A stretch of DNA of 64,000 nt from NCBI GenBank assembly GCA_903844635.1, contig CAIMUF010000074.1, forward strand, positions 1 through 64,000, given 5' to 3'. Each line of letters starts with the position of its first letter. The stretch's first letter is position 1. Under the pieces are notes generated by a model that was not told the origin of the DNA, ran no database searches, and was given only the letters and a program-made list of their open reading frames with translations. The position numbers and the translations under genes were made by a program. This document shows, piece by piece, positions 38,854 to 58,545 of the stretch. The DNA comes from an uncultured Sulfuricurvum sp. GTDB lineage: Bacteria > Campylobacterota > Campylobacteria > Campylobacterales > Sulfurimonadaceae.

Positions 38854-40586
38854 AATATTTAATCGATTTTTTAGAAAATAAAACCATAGAAAAAAGTCAT
38901 ATTTTTGCGCAGCTCAAATGTACCGTTGAAGAGGCAAAAATTTTACAGCTTTTAACGCAAAAGTTTTTGCAGTCCCAAGAAGATATCCCTGTTTTTGAAT
39001 TGCTGCAAGAGATTTATGGTGCAGAGAATTATGAATACTTGACCCATTTTGGAGAAGTAAAAACCCTTTTGGAGCTTGGATGGATTACCCACCACTCTTT
39101 TACACCGATCAAAATCAGTGAACTCTCTGTATTGGAGCTTTTTAATACCCCAGTGGCACTTACATCAATTTTTATGAAACTTCTCGAAGAGGGGTCGTTA
39201 GAGATGACGCTTCCTGAGATCAAGCCGTATGCCGATCATTTGGAATACTTGCAAGACCAATTTTTTCGTATTGAGTTGTATCAGAAAATGTCGATTGTTC
39301 GCAACAGCGGGAACGATCATTCGCTGGGGATAAATCGGATTCAAAACAAGCTTGATTTGTTGGAAAAACGAATCGACGAACGAATTGCCCAAACTTCCCA
39401 AGATGTTGTACTGGATCGTTTTTTCAAGCAAAAAAAGTTAGAGCCAAAAGAGCAGGTGATTTTTTTAGCGTTGTTAAAAGAGGAATACAGTGCGACCGAA
39501 GGAAATCTGCGTGAGATGAATACTCTGATCGATCTCATCAGTTTTGATGATTATGAACGGATCAAAAATCGTGCATTGCTTGAAGACGGTGCGCGATTGA
39601 TTAACGATGATGTGATCGATTACGAAGAGATGCTCAACCCTTTTGGAGGGATAAGCCGTGCTTTTTACATCGTTGATGAGGTACTTCAAAGTATTATGCA
39701 CCCGCAAAAAAAGAAAAAAGCAAGCAAGCTCAAGCTCGATATGCTCATCAAAGAGCAAGAGATTTTTGAGCTGATCGAACCGGTTACCTCTTTAGAAAAT
39801 GTTGTTCTTAACACCTCTACGGAAAAAACGCTCCAAAACCTCATGCGTCAACTGGACAAAGAAGTAATAACGCGTTTGCATCAGTGGGGGGTGAAAGATA
39901 AAAAAGCGGGGATCGACGCACGAATTATTTTTTACGGTCCTCCAGGTACTGGTAAAACCCTCACGGCTCATTCGCTCTCACGTTCACTAAAACGTCAAGT
40001 GCTGAGTTTTGATTGTTCTAAAATTCTTTCAATGTACATCGGGGAATCGGAAAAAAATGTTCGTAAAATCTTCGATACCTACGCAGATTTGACCAAGCAG
40101 ACGAAAACAGAGCCGATTTTACTACTCAATGAAGCCGATCAGTTTTTGGCATCACGTTCAAGCGGTGTCGGCTCATCCGCCGATCAGATGCACAATCAAA
40201 TGCAAAATATCTTTTTAGAGCAAATCGAAAAATTTCAAGGGATTTTGATCGCTACGACAAACTTGCTTGAAAATATTGACAAAGCTTTTTCACGACGATT
40301 CAACTATAAAATTGAGTTCAAAAAACCGGATAAGGAACAGCGATTGGACCTTTGGAAGATGATGCTTCCTAAACATGCTCCATTTGAGGAAGGATTTAAT
40401 ATCGAAAAGCTTATTCACCACCCATTAACGGGGGGACAGATTAATCTGATCGTAAAAAATACCGCCTATAATGTCGCAGCTCGTGACAATGCCGTTTTCA
40501 TGCTGAGTGATTTTGAAGATGAAATCCTTAAAGAGAAACAAGGAAGTTTCGACAGTGAAAAATCAGTAGGATTTTTGAATCGCTAA
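38850..40586 (+). CDS. AAA-type ATPase with N-terminal helical region
   Basis: A 578-residue protein. Residues about 1-300 are helical and unrecognised. The C-terminal AAA module has Walker A FYGPPGTGKTLTA near residue 370, Walker B-like ILLLNEADQF in which the usual Asp is Asn, a loop with SSADQMHNQMQ, and arginine fingers in DKAFSRRFNYKIEF. The NEAD form is known in a set of bacterial AAA proteins related to CDC48/VAT. It starts with TTG overlapping the synthetase stop, with AAGGA upstream. Job in this operon unknown. Confidence 0.8.
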   Translation: MKYLIDFLENKTIEKSHIFAQLKCTVEEAKILQLLTQKFLQSQEDIPVFELLQEIYGAENYEYLTHFGEVKTLLELGWITHHSFTPIKISELSVLELFNTPVALTSIFMKLLEEGSLEMTLPEIKPYADHLEYLQDQFFRIELYQKMSIVRNSGNDHSLGINRIQNKLDLLEKRIDERIAQTSQDVVLDRFFKQKKLEPKEQVIFLALLKEEYSATEGNLREMNTLIDLISFDDYERIKNRALLEDGARLINDDVIDYEEMLNPFGGISRAFYIVDEVLQSIMHPQKKKKASKLKLDMLIKEQEIFELIEPVTSLENVVLNTSTEKTLQNLMRQLDKEVITRLHQWGVKDKKAGIDARIIFYGPPGTGKTLTAHSLSRSLKRQVLSFDCSKILSMYIGESEKNVRKIFDTYADLTKQTKTEPILLLNEADQFLASRSSGVGSSADQMHNQMQNIFLEQIEKFQGILIATTNLLENIDKAFSRRFNYKIEFKKPDKEQRLDLWKMMLPKHAPFEEGFNIEKLIHHPLTGGQINLIVKNTAYNVAARDNAVFMLSDFEDEILKEKQGSFDSEKSVGFLNR

Positions 40587-41098: not shown

Positions 41099-41488
41099 AT
41101 GGAGCACTACAACGTAGCAAATCCTTATTTTGGGGTATTTGTGCTGTTTGTACTTACGTTTGGGGCATTTTATGCGACAACGGTACTTGCACGCTTAGCC
41201 AGTCGCGCGCTCGCGGCTAAAGACACGGAAAAAATAAAACTTTCCCCGTACGAATGCGGACCAGAGGTGAGTAAGCAGCCAAACCGTATTTCAACGCAGT
41301 TTTATCTGTTTGCGTTGTTGTTTTTATTGTTTGATGTTGAGATTGTTTTTATGTTTCCGTGGGCGATTGATTTTAAATTGCTTGGCTGGTTTGGTTTTGC
41401 TGAGATGATGATGTTTATTCTCCTCTTGGCTATCGGATTTGTTTATGCGTGGAAGAAAGGAGCCCTCGAATGGCACAACATCAAGTAA
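41099..41488 (+). CDS. nuoA: NADH-quinone oxidoreductase subunit A
   Basis: A membrane subunit of complex I at the junction of the arms. The 129-residue protein has three hydrophobic helices, with [39 protein letters not shown] at its centre, the NuoA signature with ECG and DVE. Good AAAAAGG site before the ATG. The nuoB start lies inside its 3' end, an overlap of 19 nt. Confidence 0.97.
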
Positions 41489-41979
41489 ATTATTTAAAAG
41501 ACGGCGGTCTTCCTGTTGCACTGACTACAATTGACAAAGTTGTCAACTGGGGTCGTTCCAACTCGTTGTGGGCCTTGACATATGGTTTGGCGTGTTGCGG
41601 TATTGAGATGATGGCTTCGGGTGCATCTCGCTATGACTTTGACCGTTTTGGTACGATTTTCCGTGCTTCTCCGCGTCAAGCAGAACTGATGGTTGTTGCT
41701 GGGACATTGACCAAAAAGCATGCGGAATTTATTCGCCGTTTGTACGACCAAATGACAGAGCCGAAATGGGTTATTTCTATGGGTTCATGCGCGAATACGG
41801 GCGGTATGTTTAACACGTACGCAACTGTTCAGGGCGTGGACCGTGTTATTCCTGTTGATTTGTATCTTCCAGGTTGTGCACCTCGTCCAGAGACGTTGCA
41901 ATACGGCGTTATGATGCTTCAACAAAAAATTCGTCGTGAGAGTGCATCTCGTGCTCAAAAGCCAAAAAGGTTGATGTAA
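41470..41979 (+). CDS. nuoB: NADH-quinone oxidoreductase subunit B
   Basis: Carries the terminal [4Fe-4S] cluster N2 that reduces quinone. The 169-residue protein has adjacent cysteines in LACCGIEMM, plus [12 protein letters not shown] and LPGCAPRPE, the four N2 ligands. ATG 41470 is chosen because AAGGAG lies just upstream; an in-frame GTG seven codons earlier is improbable. Its stop overlaps the nuoC start. Confidence 0.97.
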
Positions 41980-42785
41980 TGAGAGCGTATACTCCTAAAG
42001 ACAACGTACAAAAGAAACCGTATTACACGGATCGTTATTGGGTTGCTCCACAAGTTGCGAAACATGACGTGAGCAGTGATGACGTATTTGCGCACGATCT
42101 TGATGCAATTAAAGCAAAATTTGAGGTTTTAGATGCGTATATCCAAGTCGATCAAATGGTGGTCATCATCAATGCGCACGATAATTTTGCCGTCATTGAA
42201 ATGCTCAAAAATGAGCGTGAATACAATCAGCTTTCTGAAATGAGCGCGATTGATTGGCTTGCAACTGAGGGAAAATTTGAGATTTTTTATCAAATGTTGA
42301 GTATGAGTAAACGTAAACGTCTCCGTATCAAATGTAAAATCGATGAAAAAGAGTCACTCCAAAGTGTTGAAAAACTTTTCCGCAGTGCTGACTGGTCTGA
42401 GCGTGAGATGTACGATATGTTTGGTGTGATCGTAAATAATCATCCGTTTATGAAACGTATTTTGATGCCTGATGATTGGGAAGGATTCCCATTGCGTAAA
42501 ACCTATCCGCTTCAAGGCGATGAGTTCGCAGCATGGTACGAAGTTGATAAAATATTCGGTAAAGAAGCACGTGAGATTATCGGACCTGAAAATCGTGATC
42601 CTGCACGTATCGACCGTTATGATACTGAGCGTTTTTCACGTTTAGGACATGAAGTGCCACGCGGTACAGATATTACCAATGGTGAGCCGGATACCCCACT
42701 TGTGTATCAAGAGCCAGAAGGTGTATTTTTAATCGAAAAATTTGATGCAGAGCAATCCGTTGTGATCTCTGATCGCCACCGTTAA
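41979..42785 (+). CDS. nuoC: NADH-quinone oxidoreductase subunit C
   Basis: The 30-kDa-type subunit of the peripheral arm. The 268-residue protein has an N-terminal extension of about 50 residues, then [66 protein letters not shown], the family signature. The C-terminal tail of about 75 residues beyond the signature is longer than in typical NuoC. It is separate from NuoD, unlike the fused NuoCD of E. coli. Confidence 0.96.
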
Positions 42786-42795
42786 GGAGCTATGA

Positions 42796-44022
42796 ATGCA
42801 ACAATCCAATCGCCTTAGACCCTTTTTTGAAAACATTACGTTTGATCGAGTCGATAATGAGATGATCCTTAACTTCGGTCCTCAACATCCATCGGCGCAC
42901 GGACAGTTACGTCTGATGCTGCACATGCAGCAAGAGCAGATTACCAAAGCGCATCCGGACATTGGATACCTTCACCGTGGTATGGAGAAGATGGCGGAGA
43001 ACATGATCTACAATGAGTTCATGCCGACAACGGATCGTATGGACTACATCGCGTCAAGCTCTAATAACTATGGCTTTGCCCTTGCAGTCGAGCGTTTGAT
43101 CGGTCTTGAAGTTCCGCGTCGTGCGAAAGTCATTCGTATGATGTTGCTCGAAACCAACCGTCTTATGTCTCACCTTTTTTGGTTGGCAACGACAGCGCTT
43201 GATATTGGAGCGATGACTGTATTTTTGTTCGCTTTCCGTGAACGAGAATATTTGATGGATTTGATCGAAGATTATTGTGGTGCACGTTTGACACACTCAG
43301 CTGTTCGTATCGGTGGAGTGCCATTGGATTTGCCGGATAATTTTATCGGTGATTTACGCAAATTTTTGGACAAGTTACCTGAAAATATTAAAGATTACGA
43401 AGACTTACTTGACACGAATCGTATTTGGTTGATGCGTATGGAAAATGTGGGTGTTATCTCTAAAGAGATGGCACTTAGCTGGGGATGTTCCGGCGTAATG
43501 TTACGTGCATCGGGCGTTGAGTGGGATATTCGTAAAGAAGAACCGTACGAATTATACGATGAAGTCGAGTTTAACGTTCCTGTTTCCGATAAAGGAGACA
43601 ACTATGCCCGTTATAAACTCTACATGGCAGAGATGAAAGAGTCGGCAAAAATTCTCTATCAAGTACTCGATATGTATTCGGAAACTGAGCCTGCATTAAT
43701 GGCACACGCACCACAATATATTTCTGCACCAAAACTGGATATTATGACTCAAAACTACTCGTTGATGCAACACTTTGTCCTCGTGACACAGGGAATGCGC
43801 CCACCGGTAGGGGAAGTTTATATTCCAACAGAATCACCAAAAGGCGAGCTTGGATATTACATTAATAGCCAAGGTGGAGCCTATCCGTACCGTCTCAAAC
43901 TTCGTGCTCCATCGTTTTGGCACACAGGTATTTTGACCGATTTGTTACCTGGGCACTATATCCCAGACGTAGTATCCATCATCGGGACGACCAATATCGT
44001 CTTCGGTGAAGTTGACCGTTAA
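42796..44022 (+). CDS. nuoD: NADH-quinone oxidoreductase subunit D
   Basis: The 49-kDa-type subunit that with NuoB forms the quinone site. The 408 residues contain [15 protein letters not shown] near the start, with the quinone-site His, then [26 protein letters not shown] and the C-terminal [46 protein letters not shown] precedes the ATG. Normal length. Confidence 0.97.
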
Positions 44023-44033
44023 AAAGGACCTTT

Positions 44034-44264
44034 ATGAAACGTTATGACCTTCGTCACCTCAAAGGTGCTTTTGAAAACCGTATGGTTGAGATTATGAAAG
44101 AAGAACAAGACCCGAAAGAGGTTTTGATTTTCTTGTTTGAGATTGGTGATTTTTCACCCATACAGCGTAGTGCTGACGTCGTTAAAGAAAGCGGATATGA
44201 GATGACAAATTCATTGAAATTTAATGAAGCGGACTGGACCATCGTGGTCAAGCGTAAGGACTAA
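44034..44264 (+). CDS. Small NuoE-position subunit of the epsilon-type complex I
   Basis: A 76-residue protein (begins MKRYDLRHLKGAFENRMVEIMKEEQDPKEVLIFLFEIGDFSPIQRSADVV). True NuoE has about 160 residues and four cysteines for a [2Fe-2S] cluster. This protein has no cysteine at all, so it cannot carry that cluster. Its slot between nuoD and the next gene matches the small protein known in Campylobacter (Cj1575c) and Helicobacter. It probably helps dock the electron-input protein. Start has AAAGGACC upstream. Confidence 0.8.
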   Translation: MKRYDLRHLKGAFENRMVEIMKEEQDPKEVLIFLFEIGDFSPIQRSADVVKESGYEMTNSLKFNEADWTIVVKRKD

Positions 44265-44266
44265 AA

Positions 44267-46303
44267 GTGAGCAAAGTCTATTTCTCCACATGGCGCGGAG
44301 AGCAGATCAACAACATCGGTAAGCCTGAAGAAGAATGGGAAATCTCTGCGTACAATCTGCCTGAGCAGTACAATGAACATTCCCATTCCAAAGCGTTTAT
44401 CGGTTGGGATGGTTTGGCGCTTTTTAATCCTGATATCGATGTCGTTCGTTTAGCTACAGAATATGCCGCGCAATATCAAGTCTATTCAGAAGCGTGCGGT
44501 CGCTGTGCACCTGGGCGATGGGGCGGACGTATTTTGTACGATTTGCTTGACAAGATCGCTCGTGGTGAAGGCGCTATGAGTGATATGGAACATCTAAAAG
44601 AAGTTTCAAAAACGATGCAAGAGACATCCAAATGTGAGATTGGTAAAACGGTTCCAACTCCATTGCTGGATTTGATGAACCATTTTGAAGCTGAATTTGT
44701 AGCGTGTATCGAGAGTCAAAAACCTTCCAAACATTATCACATGGAAGATACCAATTACATTGCCAAGATTACGGCACCGTGCATGGATGCTTGTCCTGCG
44801 CATGTCGATATTCCGGCTTACATAGAGGGCGTTCGCGATTTACGTTTTGATGATTCTCTTATGGCTACACGTCAAACCATGCCACTCGCTCATACGTGTG
44901 GACGGGTTTGTCCTCATCCATGCGAGACTGAGTGTCGCAGAAGTAATCTTGATGAGCCGATTTCAATCATGGAGCTCAAACGTTTAGGTGCTGATTATGA
45001 AACCGATCACGGTTTTGGATTTTTTCATCCGTATGAGCAGAAACCTTCAACGGGTAAAAAAGTTGCGATCATCGGATCAGGGCCTGCGGGACTTACGGGT
45101 GCATATTACCTTGCCCTTGATGGTGTAGAGGTTGATGTTTACGAAGAACTTCCAGTTCTAGGCGGTGAAGTTGCTGTTGGAGTACCTGAATACCGGATGC
45201 CTGTGGATAAGTACAATCAAGATATCGAAGCAGTACGTGATTTAGGGGTGAATTTTATCACCAATACCAAGGTCACTGCAGAGATGATGCGTCAATATGA
45301 AAATGATTACGATGGTATTTTGATAGCAACAGGAACGCGTATCTCGAAAAAAGTATATTGTGAAAACGAACGTGCTGAGATACAAGGATATTGGGGTGCG
45401 ATTGATTTTCTGGATAAAGTAAATCTCGAAGTGAAATATGGAATTATGGTCCCGGAAGCCGATCAAAAACAACATATGTTGGACAAAGATTATGTGGATT
45501 TGACAGGTAAAACCGTTGTCTGTGTCGGGGGTGGATTTACCTCTATGGACGTTGTTCGTTGTTCGATTCGTGCTAATGCCGCCAAAGTCGTGATGATCTA
45601 TCGTCGTGATGAGAGAACGATCATCAATAACACCACGTATGAAGAGTATCACGAAGCGGTTGAAGAGGGTGTTGAATTTATTTTTCACTCGGCAGTCGCT
45701 GAAATGCGTGATGAAAACAATGTACTGAAATCGTTATTGATTGACCGTTTTGAACTGGTTCCTGATCCTAATGGCGGTCGTGCTACCTTGGAGAAAATCG
45801 AGGGTGCATCGTTTGAAATGCCATGTGATTACCTTATCCCTGCGGTTTCTCAAAGTGCTGATTTGAAGCTTATACCGCAAGAATGGGAAGTTGAACGAAC
45901 TTCATGGGGAACGATCAAAACCAATGGTAAAGATTACATGACCTCACGCAAGGGTATTTTTGCCGCAGGTGACTGTGAATACGGACCGATGACGATTGTG
46001 AATGCGGTTGGGCAAGCTAAACGCGCAGCATCCGTTATATCACGTTATGTCGTTAACGGTGAAATTACGCTCAAAGACGATGAGATTATGGAAGATCACC
46101 TTCGTAAGCTCAAAGTCTATGACAAAAAAGAGAAAATTCAAGGCTGGCTCCCAGGTTTGCCACGTCAACACAGTGAAGTTTTGAGTGTAGAAGAACGTCG
46201 CGATAATAATCGTGAAGTTAAATATGCATTGACACAAGAAGAAGCGATGAGTGAAGCGGATCGTTGTATGCGCTGTTATTACATTGCCATGGTAGCACAC
46301 TAA
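44267..46303 (+). CDS. NuoF-like/GltD-like fusion: putative electron-input subunit of complex I
   Basis: A 678-residue protein in the nuoF position. Residues about 60-150 resemble the NuoF N3 region: Cys77, Cys80 and Cys123 sit at NuoF spacing, but position 83, the third ligand, is Gly. Residues 172-223 (CMDACPAHVDIP, TCGRVCPHPCETEC) are the two-cluster domain of GltD/dihydropyrimidine dehydrogenase-type proteins. FAD motif GSGPAGLTGAYY near 270 and pyridine-nucleotide motif VGGGFTSMDVV near 423 follow, with a CMRC at the C-terminus. The NuoF FMN domain is absent. GTG start, AAGGA upstream. Electron donor unknown; NAD(P)H or ferredoxin possible. Confidence 0.85.
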   Translation: MSKVYFSTWRGEQINNIGKPEEEWEISAYNLPEQYNEHSHSKAFIGWDGLALFNPDIDVVRLATEYAAQYQVYSEACGRCAPGRWGGRILYDLLDKIARGEGAMSDMEHLKEVSKTMQETSKCEIGKTVPTPLLDLMNHFEAEFVACIESQKPSKHYHMEDTNYIAKITAPCMDACPAHVDIPAYIEGVRDLRFDDSLMATRQTMPLAHTCGRVCPHPCETECRRSNLDEPISIMELKRLGADYETDHGFGFFHPYEQKPSTGKKVAIIGSGPAGLTGAYYLALDGVEVDVYEELPVLGGEVAVGVPEYRMPVDKYNQDIEAVRDLGVNFITNTKVTAEMMRQYENDYDGILIATGTRISKKVYCENERAEIQGYWGAIDFLDKVNLEVKYGIMVPEADQKQHMLDKDYVDLTGKTVVCVGGGFTSMDVVRCSIRANAAKVVMIYRRDERTIINNTTYEEYHEAVEEGVEFIFHSAVAEMRDENNVLKSLLIDRFELVPDPNGGRATLEKIEGASFEMPCDYLIPAVSQSADLKLIPQEWEVERTSWGTIKTNGKDYMTSRKGIFAAGDCEYGPMTIVNAVGQAKRAASVISRYVVNGEITLKDDEIMEDHLRKLKVYDKKEKIQGWLPGLPRQHSEVLSVEERRDNNREVKYALTQEEAMSEADRCMRCYYIAMVAH

Positions 46304-46314
46304 TGGAGGTCGGG

Positions 46315-48558
46315 ATGATTAATTTTACTATAAACAACCAACCTGTAACGGCGCTCAAAGGGGAAACAATTCTTCAAGTGGCACGAAAATCAGGGTTTTA
46401 TATTCCTACGATGTGTTATATTGAGAAAACGACTCCTTGTGCATCGTGCCGTTTGTGTGTCGTTGAGACGGATAAAACGGATGGTTTGATTTTAAGCTGT
46501 CAAACTCCTCCGACGCAAGGGCTTGCAGTGACCATTGATTCTGAAAGGTTGCAAACAGAGCGCACGAATATTATGCGTATGTACGATGTCAATCACCCAT
46601 TAGAATGTGGTGTATGCGATAAATCAGGGGCGTGCGATCTTCAAAACAAGACGTTAGAATTTGGGATATCAAGCCAACATTTCAGCGCAAAAGAACAAAA
46701 TCGAAAGATTGAACATTGGGGACTGATTAATTACGATCCTTCTTTATGTATTTTGTGTGAAAAATGCGTACACGTTTGTAATGAAATTATCGGTGATGAT
46801 GCTATTACACTTCAGTTTGGCGGATACAAATCAGCGGTTATTCCTAAAAACAGTGATGTTCTTGATTGTACTTTCTGTGGTGAGTGTATTGCCGTGTGTC
46901 CTGTGGGTGCATTGGTGAGTTCGAAGTTCCAGTACAGCGCTAATGCGTGGGAGTTGACCCAAATTCCTGCTACGTGTGCTCATTGTTCTGCCGGATGTTC
47001 ACTGACGTATGAAGTGCGTCATACCTCGAATTCTCTTGGAGCAAAGCCAAAAATTTATCGTGTAACGAATAATTTTGAAGTAGCAACTCTCTGCGGAGCG
47101 GGACGTTTCGGCTTTGATTTTGACATTCAAGCAGCCAAAGATGAAACATTATTCGAAAAAGCAGTCTTGGCATTTCAAAATGCGACAGCCATTCGATTTA
47201 GCTCACTGATTACGAATGAAGAGGCTTTGATTTTACAGCGTCTCAAAGAAAAGCTGGGCGTTAAACTCTTTAATGAAGAAGCAAGAGCCTATCAATCCTT
47301 TATGCAGGCATACAGCTCAATAAGCGGAAAAAGTGCCTTTAGCGGTTCACTTGACGCAATTGCACAAAGCGATGCGATTATCGTAATGGGCGGACGTGTG
47401 AGTACAGATAATCCTGCCGTTCGTTACGCAATGACTACGGCTGCACGTCACAACGGAGCAAAAATTGTTTACATGCATCCACTCGAAGATGCACTGCTGC
47501 AAAACGTAGTAACGCAGAATATTCGCTATGAAGCAGGTTCTGAAGAGGGCGTTATCGCAATGCTTGCACAAACTCTTTTAGAAGGGTGCGATGTAGATGA
47601 TGCAATAAAAGCCTTTTTAGAAAGTTTGGATGAGGGTTATTTATGCGCTGAATCCAATGTAGGGGATGAAGAGTTCGCTCAAATTTCAAAATCATTACGA
47701 CGCGCAAAGCGTAAAACACTCATTATCGGTTCGGATGTTTTGAGTCATAATCGTGCAGTAAACATCGCTCGTTTGTGTGCTTTGATTGAAACACATACCG
47801 ATTTTTCACTTATCGTGATTCCTCAAACGGTTAATACGGTAGGAGTATCTCTTATTTGTGATCTGGATAAAGATGAAAAAATTGCCAATGTTGTCGGATA
47901 TAACGCGCAGGGGGATTTTGTAATCGGCTCTATGGGCGAATGTGCGATGACGATGCCGTCATTAAACAGCCAAGAAGGGACATTCGTCAGTATCAACTAT
48001 CAACTTCTGGCGACGAATGTTGCGGTTGCTTTTGAGGGGCATTGCTTGAACGATATTGCGCAAGCTTTAGGGCTAAAAGCACTGAATACGATTGACTATA
48101 CAGCACAATTACCAGTAGAAAAAGGGTTTAAAGCGGTAGAATTTGATATGCTAGGTAACTTTTACGGAGCACTGGGTGAAGATTATCGCGGATATCAATT
48201 AGAGACCATGGACAGTGAGCTTGAGGGCGCATTGGAAGAGATTGATGATTTACCGGAATTTAATGGAACTGTTATTTATCAATGCAATCCTGTCAATCAG
48301 TTCAATGCGTATACTGCGCGAACATCTCAATTGGAAGCAGATACATCGCTTCGCGGTTCCGTACAGTTTGCGACGGCAGCTCGTATTAGTGATGGGGAAA
48401 GTATTAGCATTGAGGGACGTGAGGGTGTTAGAGTCTTTATCGTTGATGAAACACTCAAAGGAACCATTGCTCTTTTACCTACCTATGATACTGCCTTTGG
48501 CGGAGCGCATGAGGGTTACCGATTTGAGAAAATTAAACTACAAAGGATGGGGAGTTAA
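46315..48558 (+). CDS. nuoG: NADH-quinone oxidoreductase subunit G, first paralogue
   Basis: A 747-residue NuoG. N-terminal [2Fe-2S] ligands are Cys34, Cys45, Cys48 and Cys62 (N1b). HPLECGVCDKSGACDLQ is the His/Cys cluster motif, CILCEKCVHVCNE and CTFCGECIAVCPVGAL are ferredoxin-type clusters, and CAHCSAGCSLTYE with LCGAGRFGFDF is the N7-type site. The molybdopterin-like C-terminal domain is divergent. ATG 46315 follows GGAGG by 5 nt; an ATG four codons earlier overlaps the previous stop and is a weaker choice. A second nuoG follows after 3 nt. Confidence 0.93.
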   Translation: MINFTINNQPVTALKGETILQVARKSGFYIPTMCYIEKTTPCASCRLCVVETDKTDGLILSCQTPPTQGLAVTIDSERLQTERTNIMRMYDVNHPLECGVCDKSGACDLQNKTLEFGISSQHFSAKEQNRKIEHWGLINYDPSLCILCEKCVHVCNEIIGDDAITLQFGGYKSAVIPKNSDVLDCTFCGECIAVCPVGALVSSKFQYSANAWELTQIPATCAHCSAGCSLTYEVRHTSNSLGAKPKIYRVTNNFEVATLCGAGRFGFDFDIQAAKDETLFEKAVLAFQNATAIRFSSLITNEEALILQRLKEKLGVKLFNEEARAYQSFMQAYSSISGKSAFSGSLDAIAQSDAIIVMGGRVSTDNPAVRYAMTTAARHNGAKIVYMHPLEDALLQNVVTQNIRYEAGSEEGVIAMLAQTLLEGCDVDDAIKAFLESLDEGYLCAESNVGDEEFAQISKSLRRAKRKTLIIGSDVLSHNRAVNIARLCALIETHTDFSLIVIPQTVNTVGVSLICDLDKDEKIANVVGYNAQGDFVIGSMGECAMTMPSLNSQEGTFVSINYQLLATNVAVAFEGHCLNDIAQALGLKALNTIDYTAQLPVEKGFKAVEFDMLGNFYGALGEDYRGYQLETMDSELEGALEEIDDLPEFNGTVIYQCNPVNQFNAYTARTSQLEADTSLRGSVQFATAARISDGESISIEGREGVRVFIVDETLKGTIALLPTYDTAFGGAHEGYRFEKIKLQRMGS

Positions 48559-48561
48559 ATC

Positions 48562-51048
48562 ATGAATGAAATAACGATAACCATAGACGGCAAACAGGTA
48601 CGGACGCAAGAGGGTGAATACATTCTCAATGCGGCGCGTGCCAATGGGATATTTATTCCTGCCATTTGTTATCTAACACGCTGTTCACCAACCTTGGCAT
48701 GCCGTATTTGTTTGGTAGAAGCGGATGGAAAACAAGTTTATGCGTGCAATGCAAAAGCCAAAATGGGAATGGACATCAATACAAAAACTCCCGTTATTGA
48801 AGAAGAAAAACGCGCTATCATGGAAGTTTATGACGTTAATCATCCTTTAGAATGTGGCGTATGCGACCAATCGGGGGAGTGTGAGCTTCAAAATTACACA
48901 CTTGAAATTGGGGTAGATAAACAGCATTATTCCATCGCTGATACTCACAAGCCGGCACAAGATTGGGGTCTTATCCATTATGATCCTGCCTTGTGCATCA
49001 TGTGTGAGCGCTGTATTACCGTGTGTAAGGATATGATCGGTGATGCAGCACTTTCTACCGTTGCCCGTGGCAGTGAACCTCTTGATGCAGCGTTCAAAGA
49101 GTCAATGCCAAAAGACGCCTATGCAATGTGGAATAAGCTGAATAAATCACTTATCGCCCCAAATGCCGGTGATACTCTTGATTGTACCAACTGCGGCGAG
49201 TGTACGGCAGTTTGTCCTGTCGGAGCCTTGGTCAGCAGTGATTATCAGTACAGCTCAAACGCGTGGGAACACCAGCAAATTCCTGCAACATGCGCCCATT
49301 GCAGTGCCGGATGCCAAATCAGCTACGACATTAAACATACCGATATTGCAAACCCTGAGGCTAAAATCTACCGTGTCAAAAATGAGTGGAACTATGTCTC
49401 TCTTTGCGGTGCAGGACGTTATGGCTACGATTTCCAAAATTCCAATGTCACTAAAAATCCAGTTGCCTTTGATGCAGCAATCAAAGCTTTCAAAAAAGCG
49501 GATACCATTGCCTTTACTTCAACCATTACGAATGAAGAGGCGATGATCTTACAACGTCTTAAAGAGAAACTTGGGCTTAAACTCATCAACAACGAAGCAC
49601 GAGTGTTTAAAAATTTCCTCGACAGTTACAGTGCTGTCAGCGGGCAATCCCTTTACAGCGGTAATCTCAAAGAAGTGCATGAATCTGATTTTGTTGTTTC
49701 CATTGGAACAGCATTGAAGACTGACAATCCTAATGCCCGTTTTGCTATGAACAATGCATTATCGATGAACAAAGGTGCTGGATTGTATTTTCATCCGATC
49801 AATGATCCGGTCATCGAAGATATGTCCAAAAATTTAACTCAGTTCAATCATGCTCCCATGATGGAAGAAGCAGCGTTGTATTTGATGCTTGATCTTTTTG
49901 GAGATAAAACAGCAATGCCTTCAATCACTGTTGATTATCTGAAAAGTTTTCATTCTCTTAAAACGGTGACGGTTGAAGAAAGCGTCGATGAAAAAGTGAC
50001 TGAAACGGTCATTAAAAAAGTTCTCAATGAAGAAACAGGCGTTGAAGAAGAAGTAAGTGAAGAAGTAACGAAAACGGTGAAGAAAAAAGTTTCAAAAGAG
50101 ATAGAAGTAGATGAAAATCGCCTTTTAGATCTTTTAAACGCACCCACTGGATTTGCTGAAACACTGACGAAGTATTTAGCAAAAAAAGAGAAGTTTTCAC
50201 TCATGGTTGGACCGGATTTGTATACCCATCCGAATTCAGCTAATTGTGCGAGACTTGTTGCTTTAATTGAAAAATACACAGCGTTCAATGTAACCATGAT
50301 ACCCAATCTTGCTAATACACTAGGGGTTGCACTCATTTGTGACCTTGATGAGAAGGCTGGTGAATACACAATTGGTTATAATACAGCAGGAGATTTTACG
50401 TTAAGTGCATTAGGAAATGGTGATTTGGATATGCCAGCACTTAATCAGCAAGAGGGGACATTGACCAGTATTGATAAGCGCGTCAATCCAACCAATGTGG
50501 CACTTCCTTTTGGCGGCTATACCCTCAATGATGTAGCTTCTGCTCTTGGAGTATCTGCGGCATTGAGTGTTGACTACACCGTGCAACTTCCTGTAAGTGC
50601 AGGATTTAAAGCGGTAGAATTTGATACATTGCCAAATCATTACACCAATGCGGGCGAAGAAGTCCGTGGATATGTCCTTGATACTTTAAAAGTATTTTGT
50701 GGCAAAGATGAAAATGTTCAAGCTTTCGATGAAAAAGATGCTATGACAACATCTGTTGTTTATCTTGCCAATCCGGTGTTGCAGTTTACGCCGTTTACTG
50801 CACGCGCGCATCAGTTGAATGAAGAGGGCGGTTTGTACGCATCCAGTGAGTTTATGAGCAGTAATGGTTTGAACTTAGGTGATAACGTGCGGGTCAAGAC
50901 TCCAAAGGGTGAGATAGTAGTTTCTGTCATTAACGATTCAAAAATCAACGGAGATATAACGTATCTTCCGACGTTTGACTCAAAAATTAACTCACAAGCA
51001 TTGTTTGGTGATTATCGCTTTAGTAATGTAACGATTGAAAAGGTGTAG
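48562..51048 (+). CDS. nuoG: NADH-quinone oxidoreductase subunit G, second paralogue
   Basis: An 828-residue NuoG with the full motif set: N1b ligands Cys36, Cys47, Cys50 and Cys62; HPLECGVCDQSGECELQ; CIMCERCITVCKD and CTNCGECTAVCPVGAL; CAHCSAGCQISYD with LCGAGRYGYDF. It resembles the first copy along most of its length, e.g. TNEEAMILQRLKEKLG against TNEEALILQRLKEKLG. Residues about 466-521 are a charged insert of V/T/E/K-rich repeats (VTETVIKKV, EEVTKTVKKKV) absent from the first copy. AGTTAAATC precedes the ATG. Probably from tandem duplication. Confidence 0.93.
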   Translation: MNEITITIDGKQVRTQEGEYILNAARANGIFIPAICYLTRCSPTLACRICLVEADGKQVYACNAKAKMGMDINTKTPVIEEEKRAIMEVYDVNHPLECGVCDQSGECELQNYTLEIGVDKQHYSIADTHKPAQDWGLIHYDPALCIMCERCITVCKDMIGDAALSTVARGSEPLDAAFKESMPKDAYAMWNKLNKSLIAPNAGDTLDCTNCGECTAVCPVGALVSSDYQYSSNAWEHQQIPATCAHCSAGCQISYDIKHTDIANPEAKIYRVKNEWNYVSLCGAGRYGYDFQNSNVTKNPVAFDAAIKAFKKADTIAFTSTITNEEAMILQRLKEKLGLKLINNEARVFKNFLDSYSAVSGQSLYSGNLKEVHESDFVVSIGTALKTDNPNARFAMNNALSMNKGAGLYFHPINDPVIEDMSKNLTQFNHAPMMEEAALYLMLDLFGDKTAMPSITVDYLKSFHSLKTVTVEESVDEKVTETVIKKVLNEETGVEEEVSEEVTKTVKKKVSKEIEVDENRLLDLLNAPTGFAETLTKYLAKKEKFSLMVGPDLYTHPNSANCARLVALIEKYTAFNVTMIPNLANTLGVALICDLDEKAGEYTIGYNTAGDFTLSALGNGDLDMPALNQQEGTLTSIDKRVNPTNVALPFGGYTLNDVASALGVSAALSVDYTVQLPVSAGFKAVEFDTLPNHYTNAGEEVRGYVLDTLKVFCGKDENVQAFDEKDAMTTSVVYLANPVLQFTPFTARAHQLNEEGGLYASSEFMSSNGLNLGDNVRVKTPKGEIVVSVINDSKINGDITYLPTFDSKINSQALFGDYRFSNVTIEKV

Positions 51049-51051
51049 CAG

Positions 51052-52041
51052 ATGGATATGGCATTTATCATCGAAACGATTGTCAAAATCGTCGTCATTT
51101 TATTAGTGTTCTCGGCTCTCGCTGGGTTAGGTACCTATTTTGAGCGTAAAGTCTTGGCATTTATGCAACGCCGTCTTGGACCGATGCACGTTGGACCTTT
51201 TGGCTTGCTCCAAGTAGCAGCTGACGGAATCAAGCTTTTTACCAAAGAGGATATCATTCCTCAAAATGTCGTAAAGCCAATTTTTAAAATTGCGCCTGTT
51301 ATTACAGCAGCAACAGCTTTTATGGCAGCAGCCGCTATCCCGTTTTGGCCTCAATTCACGGTATTTGGTTATACGGTTCATCCTATCGTTGCAGATGTCA
51401 ATATCGGTATTTTGTACGTATTGGGTGTCATGGCGATTGGTCTTTACGGTCCATTGTTAGGCGGTATGGCGTCAGCAAATAAGTTTTCATTGATCTCTGC
51501 GGCACGTAGTGCAGCCGTATTTATCTCCTATGAAGTAATTAGTGGACTTTCATTGCTCGCTCCTCTTATGTTGGTAGGCTCTTTGTCTCTTATCGATATT
51601 AACAACTACCAAGCAGGCGGAATTGGTAACTGGATCGTTTGGTCGCAGCCGGTTGCCTTTATCCTTTTTTGGATTGCAGCATTTGCCGAGACTGGACGTA
51701 CTCCGTTTCACCTCGTTGCTAATGACCACGAGATCATTGACGGATTTGGAACTGAGTATTCAGGTATGAGATGGGGTCTTTTCTTTATCGGTGAATACGC
51801 GAACATGTTCTTTATATCATTTGTAATCGCTATCATTTTCTTAGGCGGTTTTGGTGATGGATCGATTGCTGGAGCATTTCAATTGCTCCTAAAAGTTGCA
51901 TTTTTCTTTTTCTTTTTCCTCTGGACCCGTGCTGCATGGCCAGATGTACGACCGGATCAGTTGATGTGGTTGTGCTGGAAAGTGTTAATGCCAATAGCCG
52001 TGATCAATGTTGTGATCACCGGTCTTGTGATGATGTTTTAA
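51052..52041 (+). CDS. nuoH: NADH-quinone oxidoreductase subunit H
   Basis: Membrane subunit at the base of the quinone channel. The 329-residue protein has about eight helices and the signatures GTYFERKVLAFMQRRLGPMHVGPFGLLQ, KEDIIPQ and AETGRTPFHLVANDHEIIDGFGTEYSGMRWGLFFIGEY. The first ATG (51052) is used; a second in-frame ATG lies two codons on. Length normal. Confidence 0.97.
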   Translation: MDMAFIIETIVKIVVILLVFSALAGLGTYFERKVLAFMQRRLGPMHVGPFGLLQVAADGIKLFTKEDIIPQNVVKPIFKIAPVITAATAFMAAAAIPFWPQFTVFGYTVHPIVADVNIGILYVLGVMAIGLYGPLLGGMASANKFSLISAARSAAVFISYEVISGLSLLAPLMLVGSLSLIDINNYQAGGIGNWIVWSQPVAFILFWIAAFAETGRTPFHLVANDHEIIDGFGTEYSGMRWGLFFIGEYANMFFISFVIAIIFLGGFGDGSIAGAFQLLLKVAFFFFFFLWTRAAWPDVRPDQLMWLCWKVLMPIAVINVVITGLVMMF

Positions 52042-52051
52042 GGAGGGATGG

Positions 52052-52666
52052 ATGCATAGTGAACCATTGAACGATCGTAATGTAAGTGAGCATAGCGCTT
52101 ACTATTATGTCGATATTGAAGAGTATCCAACCACTGGATGGGATAAGTTTAAACAAGTAGTCAAGCGTACGTTTAGAGGTGAATTGTTCGTCGGTTTGTG
52201 GGTCGTCATGCGTGAGATGATCAAGTTTGATATTCACACCGTCAAATATCCACTGGAAAAACTTCCAATCGGACCTCGTTATCGTGCAGTACACAAACTG
52301 TTGCGTTTGTGGGAATCGGGCTACGAGCGTTGTATCGGATGCGGATTGTGTGAAAAAATCTGTATTTCTGATTGTATCCGTATGGACACAAAAATCGATG
52401 AAAACAGCCGTAAAGAAGTAACCGAATACAGTATCAATCTTGGTCGTTGTATTTTCTGCGGTTATTGTGCAGAAGTATGTCCGGAGCTTGCTATTGTTCA
52501 TGGACAGCGTTATGAAAATGGATCTGAGCAGCGTGCCCACTTCGTTATTAAAGACGATATGCTCACTCCGCTTGATTTCCTGACATCAGGTCAGCAAGCA
52601 GAGTACCCAGGTTTCGGTGCCATTACCCCCAACGAGAGCGTTACCAAAACGCCTCTTGCGTATTAA
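52052..52666 (+). CDS. nuoI: NADH-quinone oxidoreductase subunit I
   Basis: Carries clusters N6a and N6b that link NuoG to NuoB. The 204-residue protein contains CIGCGLCEKICISDCIRM and CIFCGYCAEVCPELAIVHG, the two ferredoxin motifs. The N-terminal 70 residues hold amphipathic segments for contact with the membrane arm. GGAGG precedes the ATG. Position and length fit the family. Confidence 0.97.
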   Translation: MHSEPLNDRNVSEHSAYYYVDIEEYPTTGWDKFKQVVKRTFRGELFVGLWVVMREMIKFDIHTVKYPLEKLPIGPRYRAVHKLLRLWESGYERCIGCGLCEKICISDCIRMDTKIDENSRKEVTEYSINLGRCIFCGYCAEVCPELAIVHGQRYENGSEQRAHFVIKDDMLTPLDFLTSGQQAEYPGFGAITPNESVTKTPLAY

Positions 52667-52675
52667 GGAGAATAA

Positions 52676-53263
52676 ATGTTTGAAGCAATCGCTTTTTATT
52701 TGTTTGCGGCGCTTACCATTGTAATGTTTACTATTACCGTGATGACGTCTCAAGCATTGTATGCCTTGACCGCAATGGCAGCAGGGATGATTTTTATTTC
52801 AGCCTTTTTCTTCATTTTGGGTGCTGACTTTTTGGGTGCAATCCAAATTATCGTTTATACCGGTGCTGTCATGGCAATCTACGCATTTGGTATGATGTTC
52901 TTTGATACAACACGTAATGTGGTCGAAAAACGTTCCAATCCGCGTTTTGTGGTCGTTCTTGGAGCACTTGCAGCTGTTTTGGTCGTTTTTATCGTCCTTG
53001 CCCCTATTGTTACGACGAATTTAAATGCCAATTATCCGATTGACTTGGCAGTAGGAAATTCACAAGCTATCGGAATGGTGCTGTTTACAAAATATTTAGT
53101 TCCTTTTGAACTGGCAGCAGTTATGTTACTGGTTGCGATGATTGCTGGTATTGTTTTGGCAGGTAAAAAGATGGACAAATCGTTGACACTCATGACAGAA
53201 GAAGATATCGCTTTGATGCATGACTCTTTTACTCATGAATCAACTCAAGAGGAGGCGCACTAA
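52676..53263 (+). CDS. nuoJ: NADH-quinone oxidoreductase subunit J
   Basis: Membrane subunit of the proton-pumping arm. The 195-residue protein has five hydrophobic helices. The central segment GADFLGAIQIIVYTGAVMAIYAFGMMFFD is the NuoJ hallmark with its pi-bulge region. AAGGAGAATAA lies before the ATG. Its stop overlaps the nuoK ATG. Confidence 0.96.
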   Translation: MFEAIAFYLFAALTIVMFTITVMTSQALYALTAMAAGMIFISAFFFILGADFLGAIQIIVYTGAVMAIYAFGMMFFDTTRNVVEKRSNPRFVVVLGALAAVLVVFIVLAPIVTTNLNANYPIDLAVGNSQAIGMVLFTKYLVPFELAAVMLLVAMIAGIVLAGKKMDKSLTLMTEEDIALMHDSFTHESTQEEAH

Positions 53264-53568
53264 TGGAAATTACTTTAACGCACTATTTGGTTCTTTCAAC
53301 CGTTTTGTTCGCTATTGGTTTGATTGGGGTTATGCGTCGTAAAAATTTGTTGATGCTTTTTTTCGCGACGGAAATTTTGCTGAACGCTGTCAATATTGGC
53401 ATGGCTGCAATTTCTCACTATCGTGGGGATTATACAGGGCAGATGTTTGCATTTTTTATTATTGCAATCGCGGCATCCGAAGTAGCCGTAGGTTTGGGTC
53501 TTCTTATCGTATGGTATAAACGTACCGGTAAGATTGATCTTGATCAAATGACATCGATGAGAGGATAG
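53263..53568 (+). CDS. nuoK: NADH-quinone oxidoreductase subunit K
   Basis: Smallest antiporter-related membrane subunit. The 101 residues have three helices and the usual MRRKNLLMLFFATEILLNAVNIGM, whose Glu is the conserved proton-path residue, followed by AFFIIAIAASEVAVGLGLLI with a second conserved Glu. Standard length. Confidence 0.97.
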   Translation: MEITLTHYLVLSTVLFAIGLIGVMRRKNLLMLFFATEILLNAVNIGMAAISHYRGDYTGQMFAFFIIAIAASEVAVGLGLLIVWYKRTGKIDLDQMTSMRG

Positions 53569-53573
53569 GACAG

Positions 53574-55463
53574 ATGGAAGTTTATTTATACATTGCATTG
53601 TTTGCTCCGTTGGTGGGTTCACTCTTTGCGGGATTGTTTGGCGCGTATCCAAAGATGCTGTTTACAGGGGTAATTGCCTCAGGATTGCTTTTTGCATCTT
53701 TTGTAAGCAGTGCCATTTTGCTGAATTATGTTCTAACTGGACATACCGTTCATGTTGAAATGATGACTTGGATCGCGGCCGGAGATCTTTATATTCCTTT
53801 TGGTTTTGTGGTTGATCAAGTGAGTGTGACGATGATGATGGTTGTCTCTGTCGTTTCTACCGTTGTTCACGTCTACTCTATTGGTTATATGGCGCACGAC
53901 AAAGGGTTTAACCGTTTCTTCTCGTACCTATCAGCTTTCGTTTTCTCGATGATGGTCTTGGTTATGAGTGATAACTTTTTGGGTCTGTTTATCGGATGGG
54001 AAGGCGTTGGTCTTTGTTCATGGCTTCTTATTGGTTTTTGGTATCATAAAGAATCTGCAACATGGGCAGCGAATGAAGCGTTCATTATGAACCGTATCGC
54101 TGACTTGGCAATGTTGATCGGTATCTTTATGATGTACTGGAATCTTGGATCATTGCAATACGATGTTGTTTTCGCAAACGTTGCAACGCTTCCGATGCAC
54201 ATCATCACATGGATTGGGATTTTCCTCTTTATCGGTGCGATGGGTAAATCGGCACAGTTCCCTCTCCACACATGGCTTGCGGATGCGATGGAAGGTCCAA
54301 CTCCTGTATCGGCGTTGATTCACGCAGCAACAATGGTTACAGCAGGTGTGTATCTCGTGGTTCGTGCCAATCCGATCTACAGTGAAATCCCTGACGTAGG
54401 TAACGCAATCGCGTCTCTTGGTGCATTCGTTGCAATGTTTGCAGCAACCATGGCATTGGTCAATCGCGATATGAAGCGTATTATTGCGTATTCGACTCTC
54501 TCACAGCTTGGTTATATGTTTGTAGCTGCTGGTTTGGGAGCGTATTGGGTAGCGTTGTTTCACCTTATGGCACACGCATTTTTCAAAGCATTATTATTCT
54601 TGGGAGCAGGTAACGTTATGCACGCAATGCACGATGAACTTGATCCGTTTAAGATGGGTGGTTTGAAAAAATCGATGAAAGGCACATGGATATTCATGAC
54701 GCTTGCTTCCGTTGCACTTGCAGGTATTTATCCTCTTGCCGGATTCTTTTCAAAAGATTTGATTTTGGAAGTTGCATTTGTTGAACAGCACTATATTCTT
54801 TACACCGTATTGTTACTTACAGCTGGATTGACCGCATTTTACTCATTCCGTCTTGTTGCATTGATTTTCCATGGTAATGAGAGACATTTAGAACACGGTA
54901 TTCATCCGCATGAAGCGTATAGCTTTATGTTGTATGCCATGGCTCCTTTGGCTGTTTTGGCAGTGATCGCCGGTATGGTATTTAAAACCCCGTATTATTT
55001 GATGGTAACGAATCTTTTGCCAGCTATGACGTATCACATTCATAATCACACAACATTTTGGATTATGACAATCGGTACTCAATTGTTTGTGATTGCCGCA
55101 ATTACGTATGCTTACAAAAAATATGCAAAAGCCGTTAAAGTGGATAAAAAAGTGGAATCAGGTCTGTTGTATCAGCTGCTTTACAATCAATACTACATCC
55201 CTAAAATATACGATGAAGTGTTTTCGAAACCCTATTTAAAACTCTCTAAACTTGCATGGAAAGAGATTGATCTTAAAATTGTTGATGCGACCGTGGATGG
55301 CATTGCAAATGTGATTTACCAAACAGGTGAGAAAACGCATACAATGCAAAACGGAAATCTTTCCAGTATGTTGCGCTGGATGGTTATTGGTTTAGTGGTT
55401 TTATTGGTACTTGCTGTGGCGTTTACTGCGGGTTATAACGCAGTCAACCTGCAGGCAATGTAA
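53574..55463 (+). CDS. nuoL: NADH-quinone oxidoreductase subunit L
   Basis: The distal antiporter-like proton pump of complex I. The 629-residue protein has about sixteen helices. Signatures are LFIGWEGVGLCSWLLIGFW (conserved Glu), GAMGKSAQFPLHTWLADAMEGPTPVSALIHAATMVTAGVYL and FHLMAHAFFKALLFLGAG. The long lateral-helix region lies at the C-terminus. Length is typical. nuoM follows 10 nt after the stop. Confidence 0.97.
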   Translation: MEVYLYIALFAPLVGSLFAGLFGAYPKMLFTGVIASGLLFASFVSSAILLNYVLTGHTVHVEMMTWIAAGDLYIPFGFVVDQVSVTMMMVVSVVSTVVHVYSIGYMAHDKGFNRFFSYLSAFVFSMMVLVMSDNFLGLFIGWEGVGLCSWLLIGFWYHKESATWAANEAFIMNRIADLAMLIGIFMMYWNLGSLQYDVVFANVATLPMHIITWIGIFLFIGAMGKSAQFPLHTWLADAMEGPTPVSALIHAATMVTAGVYLVVRANPIYSEIPDVGNAIASLGAFVAMFAATMALVNRDMKRIIAYSTLSQLGYMFVAAGLGAYWVALFHLMAHAFFKALLFLGAGNVMHAMHDELDPFKMGGLKKSMKGTWIFMTLASVALAGIYPLAGFFSKDLILEVAFVEQHYILYTVLLLTAGLTAFYSFRLVALIFHGNERHLEHGIHPHEAYSFMLYAMAPLAVLAVIAGMVFKTPYYLMVTNLLPAMTYHIHNHTTFWIMTIGTQLFVIAAITYAYKKYAKAVKVDKKVESGLLYQLLYNQYYIPKIYDEVFSKPYLKLSKLAWKEIDLKIVDATVDGIANVIYQTGEKTHTMQNGNLSSMLRWMVIGLVVLLVLAVAFTAGYNAVNLQAM

Positions 55464-55473
55464 GGAGAATTTG

Positions 55474-57021
55474 ATGCAAGAACATATTTTATCGATTTTA
55501 ATTTTCTTCCCGGCATTGGCAGCAATGTTTGGATTTGTGGTTCATAAGGACAGCGTTCGTGCCTACGGAATTACCGTAGCAGCAATCGAATTTTTTCTAT
55601 CATTGTGGTTATGGAATTTGTATGATCCTATGACATCTGGAATGCAATTTATGGAAATGGCACCTCTTGTCTCGGCATTTGGTATCAGCTATTTAGTCGG
55701 CGTTGACGGTATTTCTCTTTTTATTATAATATTATCGACGTTTTTTACGTTAATCGGTATTGCTTCATTAACAGAGAAACGTCGCGTGAAAGACTTGATC
55801 ATTACGTTGCTTTTTTTAGAGATGACGATGGTTGGAGTATTCGCAGCACTTGATGCGATTGTGTTTTATGTTTTTTGGGAATTATCGCTTATTCCGATGT
55901 TGTATATCATCGGTGCATGGGGCGGACCTCTTCGTATTTATGCGTCGATTAAATTCTTTCTTTATACCTTTACGGGATCATTGGTGATGCTTGTAGGTAT
56001 GCTGTTTATGGCATATTTTTATTATCAAGCAACTGGTCAGTGGAGTTTCTCACTTCTCGAATGGTATCGCTTGATTTTACCGGTTAACATACAAATGTGG
56101 CTATTTGGAGCCTTTTTCTTGGGCTTTGCGATTAAAGTCCCAATGTTTCCGTTTCATACATGGCTACCCTATGCGCACGGCCAGGCACCCACTATCGGTT
56201 CGGTCATTCTTGCGGCAATTTTGCTCAAAATGGGAACGTACGCTTTTATCCGCTTTTCACTACCATTGTTTCCGGATGCATCGGTTATTTTTATGTTTCC
56301 TATCGCGATACTTGCGATTATCATGATTGTATACGCAGCGATGGTTGCATACGCTCAAGAGGACATTAAACAAGTCGTAGCGTATAGCTCTATATCGCAC
56401 ATGGGAGTTATTATTCTAGGAATTTTTGCTCTCAATGTAGAAGGGATTACCGGCTCCATCTTTTTGATGATTGCGCATGGAGTTGTTTCGGGAGCTCTGT
56501 TCTTACTTGTTGGGGTGATTTATGATCGCCGTCATACAAAACTTATGTCTGAATTTGGTGGATTAGCATCGGTTATGCCTCGCTATGCAACCATTTTCGG
56601 AATTATGATGATGGCGTCTGTCGGCTTGCCGCTTACCATCAACTTCGTGGGTGAATTTTTGAGCTTGCTTGGTTTTTACAAGCAGTCACATTCGTATACT
56701 TTAGTTGCAGGTACTGCCATTATTGTTGGGGCTATTTATATGCTCAGTGCGTATAAAAAAGCATTTTTCGGAAACGTTACCAAAGAAGAAAATAAAAATC
56801 TAAAAGATGTCAATCGTACAGAATTACTGGGTCTTGTTCCGTTAGTAATTGTAGCGATTTGGTTGGGTGTATATCCAAAACCACTTCTTGAACCGATCAA
56901 TAACAGTGTTGAAGCCATTGTACAGTTGATGCATGACAAAGCACAAACAGAGGAAGCAAAACAACGCATTCCTGATCTAGCCCATTCGGCAGGATTGAAT
57001 TCAATGCAGGAGGCACACTAA
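55474..57021 (+). CDS. nuoM: NADH-quinone oxidoreductase subunit M
   Basis: Antiporter-like proton-pumping subunit. The 515-residue protein shows [21 protein letters not shown]-like sequence (here [20 protein letters not shown] with conserved Glu), then [33 protein letters not shown] and [15 protein letters not shown] 55474 with AAGGAG upstream is chosen; the frame stays open upstream into nuoL only by chance. Its stop overlaps the nuoN ATG. Confidence 0.97.
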
Positions 57022-58526: not shown

Positions 58527-58545
58527 ACCTAACTTGGGAGCGCCA

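Follow-up and report, generated by a model that had tools for sequence, protein, structure and literature searches.

Complex I of the NuoX/NuoY type (eNuo) in Campylobacterota is characterized as taking electrons from flavodoxin and not from NADH; NuoX and NuoY replace NuoE and NuoF in this enzyme, and NuoY is the flavodoxin-linked subunit of the Campylobacter complex (PMC6682613, PMC4178425). The Sporomusa-type Nfn, StnABC, which bifurcates, has been purified as a heterotrimer in which two flavin subunits resemble NuoE and NuoF, and its StnC is a GltD-NuoG fusion, which the authors compare with SfrA (NuoG-like) and SfrB (GltD-like) of a soluble Fe(III) reductase (PMC7483475). For the NUO-2 of Nitrospina, an additional NuoG cluster has been noted (PMC3578206). 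The operon described here quite probably encodes a single complex I, with a larger peripheral arm than usual and two gates for electrons, in which an input protein (Fglt) would pass electrons to one NuoG (G1), this to a second NuoG (G2), and G2 to NuoI.

Operon layout

The window, i.e. the whole 64,000 nt stretch of uncultured Sulfuricurvum sp. DNA that was analysed, contains a nuo operon extending in the ORF list from the nuoA start at 41099 to the nuoN end at 58526. This one operon encodes the complex I core subunits A, B, C, D and H–N. As the earlier note had claimed, two nuoG paralogues lie in tandem within it, at 46315–48558 and 48562–51048. The features are:

38850–40586, + strand: AAA ATPase on the 5′ side of the operon, one of two anchors for the synteny of orphan NuoY (59 % identity to the neighbour of the orphan Y in L211)
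41099–41488, + strand: nuoA (ORF and position)
41449–41979, + strand: nuoB (ORF and position)
41979–42785, + strand: nuoC (ORF; NuoC model NF006304, E 2e-121)
42796–44022, + strand: nuoD (TIGR01962, E 2e-174)
44034–44264, + strand: small NuoE-like subunit, 76 aa, cysteine-free, in the NuoX position (PF16514 NADH-UOR_E, E 3e-37)
44267–46303, + strand: Fglt, 678 aa (PF10589, E 1e-20; PF14691; PF07992; StnC/NfnL PDB matches; alignment)
46315–48558, + strand: nuoG1 (G1), 747 aa, putative accessory NuoG (NF006305, 871 bits; alignment, ligands)
46315–47124, + strand: Fe-S region of G1, aa 1–270, with N1b, N5, N4, the extra [4Fe-4S] and N7; gone from NuoY
47347–47838, + strand: G1 scaffold segment 1, aa 345–508, kept in NuoY (BLASTP, alignment columns)
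47527–47673, + strand: G1/NuoY signature, aa 405–453, with E406, D439, G441, E446 and E453; not in G2
48217–48555, + strand: G1 scaffold segment 2, aa 635–747, kept in NuoY
48562–51048, + strand: nuoG2 (G2), 828 aa, orthologous to the one NuoG that Campylobacter-type operons have (NF006305, 1174 bits)
51052–58526, + strand: nuoH, I, J, K, L, M and N (ORFs; NuoI NF004542, E 3e-99; synteny)
58534–60891, + strand: 785 aa repeat protein on the 3′ side of nuoN, the other anchor for the synteny of orphan NuoY (homologue at or near the orphan Y in L214, L215, L219 and L222)

The NuoX-like small subunit lies between nuoD and nuoG, as in eNuo, and the place before nuoG that NuoY occupies there is taken by G1, its full-length orthologue. 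NuoD is single, with one PF00346 match genome-wide, and the canonical FMN domain of NuoF (PF01512) and the [2Fe-2S] thioredoxin domain of NuoE (PF01257) have no match in the whole genome. G1 is preceded by a GGAGG ribosome site just 5′ of its start and by a gap of 11 nt to the previous stop; G1 and G2, and G2 and nuoH, are each separated by 3 nt. Scans for promoters and terminators across the nuo operon gave nothing above chance. A further protein of the molybdopterin-oxidoreductase family (PF00384, 147 bits) is encoded elsewhere in the window, at 6954–9029.

Two complete NuoG copies

The long similar stretches said to be common to the two copies amount to 45 % identity over 421 aa (BLASTP, 414 bits, E 2e-137), and the Campylobacter-type NuoG model NF006305 (cut-off 591 bits) is the best match for both. 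The cysteine motifs, including the N7-type site, are indeed intact in each: N1b with four Cys, N5 with His and three Cys, N4 with four Cys and N7 with four Cys. Four additional cysteines in G1 (C155, C185, C188 and C191), and likewise in G2, make up a second ferredoxin-type [4Fe-4S] motif, a cluster that is not known from classical complex I. The same cysteine pattern recurs in the aligned NuoG of 7q5y, the Aquifex enzyme, and in NAD-formate dehydrogenase chains. By themselves, the ligands in the two copies do not discriminate between wiring in series and in parallel.

Across 37 relatives the N1b, N4 and N5 ligands of G1 are invariant (37/37), the extra cluster has been lost in four lineages and N7 in one. 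As these losses include lineages that keep Fglt, some G1 clusters are not needed. In every G2 checked, N1b, N4, N5 and the extra cluster are invariant, and N7 has been lost in many. Against a congener, dN/dS is 0.13 for G1, 0.07 for G2 and 0.06 for Fglt; none of the three is thus decaying, and all are under purifying selection. G1 does evolve somewhat faster than G2 and has been truncated repeatedly, as might be expected of a dispensable or decaying duplicate, for which loss of key residues had been proposed as the sign. However, its core ligands are fixed, purifying selection on it is strong, it is lost only jointly with Fglt and even the remnant is conserved, so that decay is very improbable.

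The input protein Fglt

Residues 29–147 of Fglt correspond to the C-terminal N3-type domain of NuoF (PF10589). Residues 165–673 make up an FAD-NAD(P)H domain that resembles GltD and NfnL and has two [4Fe-4S] sites. Among solved structures, residues 165–671 are nearest to StnC-type and NfnL chains, and residues 29–174 to NfnB, HydB and NuoF; Fglt resembles StnC and NfnL in the part of them that binds NADPH. Among the matches listed, a Sulfuricurvum MAG protein is 92 % identical to the Fglt of the window. The eight GltD-type cluster cysteines and a YRR motif are invariant in an alignment of 17 diverse sequences, and a GltD-type YRR motif points to NADPH. In the N3-type motif (aa 77–123, CGRCxPG...KCE), three of the four cysteines are invariant in the same 17 sequences and the third is always Gly; because the site has three cysteines, a cluster there is uncertain, and it would either be held by three cysteines or have another ligand. 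The invariant R310 aligns with an arginine named in PMC7483475, which is only suggestive as a hint of bifurcation.

A GltD-like FAD/NADPH domain is thereby paired, within the operon, with a NuoG-like Fe-S protein, and by analogy Fglt and G1 probably work like StnC split in two. The two might form a soluble NAD(P)H oxidoreductase akin to SfrAB and Stn, with their genes merely housed in the nuo operon, given that together they resemble the GltD-NuoG fusion and that StnC is likened to the subunits of the soluble Fe(III) reductase in its own paper (PMC7483475). Such an enzyme is quite unlikely: the slot between nuoD and nuoH is invariant across all loci read, G1 is nearest to its operon's own complex I NuoG, and its remnant NuoY is placed by the literature in electron entry to C. 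jejuni complex I. The earlier note had also offered one NuoG serving a separate hydrogenase- or dehydrogenase-like module, of which the hydrogenase module is unsupported.

Distribution and linked loss of Fglt and the G1 wire

In a sample of 249 Campylobacterota genomes, 60 genomes from 28 of the 55 genera carry Fglt; named relatives, among the matches listed, include MAGs with the labels Sulfuricurvum, Sulfurimonas, Sulfurovum, Nitratiruptor, Nitratifractor and Hydrogenimonas. Every Fglt locus that is intact at contig ends (38 loci read) has the order A-B-C-D-small-Fglt-G1-G2-H-I-J-K-L. In operons lacking Fglt, a gene of 227–350 aa (Y) occupies the slot between the small subunit and G2. By its position we infer that it is NuoY/Cj1574c/HP1265 of Campylobacter and Helicobacter, to which these genomes would belong. 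Size varies in some operons of family f2 (L099, L100, L101 and L102), with enlarged Fglt (724–962 aa), G1 (781–1046 aa) and partly G2 (784–1012 aa). At L092:12938–14548 and the frame before, G2 is split into two ORFs of 309 and 537 aa, through fission, frameshift or assembly error. In most Y-type lineages the N7 ligands of G2 are swapped (NSxx), with retention in the Helicobacter-like ones, and the extra [4Fe-4S] of G2 is never lost.

An operon tree was built from NuoB, D, H, I and L of 64 operons. All operons with Fglt have a full G1 (37/37), all those lacking it have Y (27/27), and the mixed state does not occur (0/64). The two states require six changes on this tree, and a single origin of the Y-type operons is rejected (p 5e-85; AU tests on quick trees with some long branches). 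The switch from Fglt and G1 to Y has therefore occurred repeatedly. Because Fglt loss always comes with loss of the Fe-S part of G1, and the N1b, N4 and N5 ligands of G1 are fixed while Fglt is present, the G1 wire appears to serve Fglt; and because G2 is the NuoG that remains in Y-type operons, it would be G2 that feeds NuoI. This is the main argument on both points. Fglt-less lineages also keep the cut-down G1 beside G2, as would be expected if the two were structural neighbours, so that G1 and G2 most likely sit in one complex.

The two copies could instead build two alternative complexes on one core, in which G1 and Fglt make up an arm of the NAD(P)H type, G2 forms one of the flavodoxin type, and the two arms bind NuoI/NuoCD in turn. 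Both copies have the entire N1b-N4-N5 wire, so that either could dock on NuoI, and the genome has one core set only. Yet the G1 scaffold persists by G2 where Fglt is gone, whereas a swapped-out arm would be expected to be wholly lost once its donor had disappeared, and the fixed gene order and 3 nt spacing favour joint production. Alternative complexes, one of the possibilities raised previously, are unlikely on these grounds; the same evidence, with the single NuoD and the lack of canonical NuoE and NuoF, supports the other possibility raised, that both NuoG copies sit in one enlarged arm.

NuoY as a stripped G1

NuoY aligns to G1 at aa 348–508 and 635–745, with E values down to 1e-35, and much more weakly to G2. 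It matches no family in Pfam, and in NCBIfam only NuoG below threshold. Its predicted structure has a pLDDT of 91, and the model spans 260 of 270 residues of a molybdopterin-oxidoreductase fold (Z 21.4; Z 16.2 for E. coli NuoG). As modelled, NuoY would consist of the two C-terminal domains of the molybdopterin-oxidoreductase/NuoG fold. A tree computed from the shared columns unites G1 with Y and keeps G2 separate (SH-aLRT 99); Y is scattered at several places among G1, and a single Y clade is rejected (p 0.017; AU tests on quick trees with some long branches). NuoY is G1 without any Fe-S domain, i.e. the remnant of a second NuoG. This explains where an unclassified complex I subunit, known from Campylobacter and Helicobacter, originated.

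Orphan NuoY outside complex I

The NuoY model also matches genomes that have no Campylobacterota-type nuo operon. NuoD is absent altogether from several NuoY-bearing genomes (three g18 genomes, G087, G072, G071 and G103), and in three others (G043, G130 and G142) NuoD gives partial matches only, to hydrogenase-like frames. The loci are:

L211:9007–9774 and L212:8676–9443: orphan NuoY adjoining the upstream AAA ATPase, in genomes with canonical-type NuoCD elsewhere
L214:8970–9656, L219:8955–9698 and L222:8883–9749: orphan NuoY at or near the downstream repeat protein
L215:8043–8756: orphan NuoY at or near the downstream repeat protein; miaA and ubiA come next
L217:8084–8914: orphan NuoY in a genome that has lost the Campylobacterota-type nuo operon
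L208:8895–9602, L209:8965–9657 and L210:8875–9642: divergent NuoY, family f5

In most cases the intact orphan Y sits at the former operon site. The operon flanking genes were looked for and not found at L208–L210, L213 and L217. Family f5 is perhaps Nautiliaceae, which are described as lacking NuoG (PMC2628731). In L208, NuoY comes after a run of heme-biosynthesis genes, the last of which is hemN-like.

All orphans (11/11) keep E406, D439, G441, E446 and F685, the residues that mark G1 and Y and not G2. Since an intact NuoY survives the loss of complex I, the G1/Y scaffold has a role outside it. The scaffold is probably bifunctional, with a place in complex I and a separate conserved cell function exerted through the acidic signature around D439–E453, and for this reason the last nuo piece would be kept after complex I loss. 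NuoY retention does not track flavodoxin or pyruvate/2-oxoglutarate oxidoreductases: genus g26 has both and no NuoY, and G008 and G004 have NuoY with no flavodoxin match. The argument that Y is kept solely as the structural neighbour of G2 is weakened by the orphan genes but stands; to that extent these genes somewhat help the reading of alternative arms, as something else may account for the survival of the scaffold. Cj1574c was reportedly found by Weerakoon and Olson in 2008 to be essential, and other nuo genes not, and a bifunctional scaffold, if true, would explain why it alone among them is so. The finding that a complex I-derived protein outlives complex I makes its second role directly testable.

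Proposed complex and electron path

For the favoured single complex with its enlarged arm, we infer the following docking order, electron path, donor and direction. G2, being orthologous to the sole NuoG of Campylobacter-type operons, is indicated as the core NuoG that hands electrons to NuoI. G1 would be a lineage-specific duplicate, inserted as an additional wire. In Fglt the FMN/NADH domain of NuoF has gone and a GltD/NfnL-type FAD domain stands in its place; the protein is expected to oxidize NAD(P)H, probably NADPH in view of the invariant YRR motif. Its NuoF-type N3 domain would dock onto the N1b face of G1. Electrons from NAD(P)H would then enter at FAD and pass through two [4Fe-4S] clusters, the N3-like site, G1 (N1b, N4 and N5), G2 and NuoI to menaquinone. 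In all such complexes G2 is probably the point of entry for flavodoxin or ferredoxin, which would give the two electron-entry branches hinted at in the earlier note. Where Fglt was dropped, the G1 wire would have become useless and been deleted, with the scaffold staying as NuoY. Run in reverse, the enzyme may use proton-motive force to drive NAD(P)H formation for CO2 fixation. The sulfur-oxidizing, CO2-fixing Campylobacterota are thus predicted to have a complex I that is wired through two NuoG and receives electrons in two ways, and this bears on how reverse electron flow supplies them with NAD(P)H and with reduced ferredoxin.

Comparison with known systems

A literature search found no account of two NuoG in one complex or of the origin of NuoY; key older studies lay outside its coverage, and priority is uncertain. 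The NUO-2 of Nitrospina gracilis and Kuenenia differs from the window operon in having one NuoG and a different NuoF2 without a GltD domain (PMC3578206). StnABC and SfrAB likewise team a GltD/NfnL-like NADPH domain with a NuoG-like Fe-S protein (PMC7483475), but the pair in the window belongs to a nuo operon that also encodes membrane subunits and is accompanied by neither the NuoE-like nor the flavin-binding NuoF-like subunit of Stn. Canonical complex I (E. coli, Thermus) shares the NuoA–D and H–N core, the NuoG fold and the N1b, N4, N5 and N7 ligands of NuoG, whereas the window has neither a canonical NuoE nor an FMN-binding NuoF and has two NuoG, each with the extra [4Fe-4S] motif. Closest is the complex I of Campylobacter and Helicobacter, with the same operon order, a small NuoE-like subunit, an orthologous G2 and a NuoY orthologous to G1 (PMC6682613, PMC4178425); its NuoY lacks the Fe-S region and Fglt is absent, while the G1 of the window is full-length and stands with an input protein of the NAD(P)H type. 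Judged by gene content, and since the NuoE and NuoF that would mark canonical complex I or the Stn complex are lacking, the operon is best classed with neither of these but as a variant of Campylobacterota complex I.
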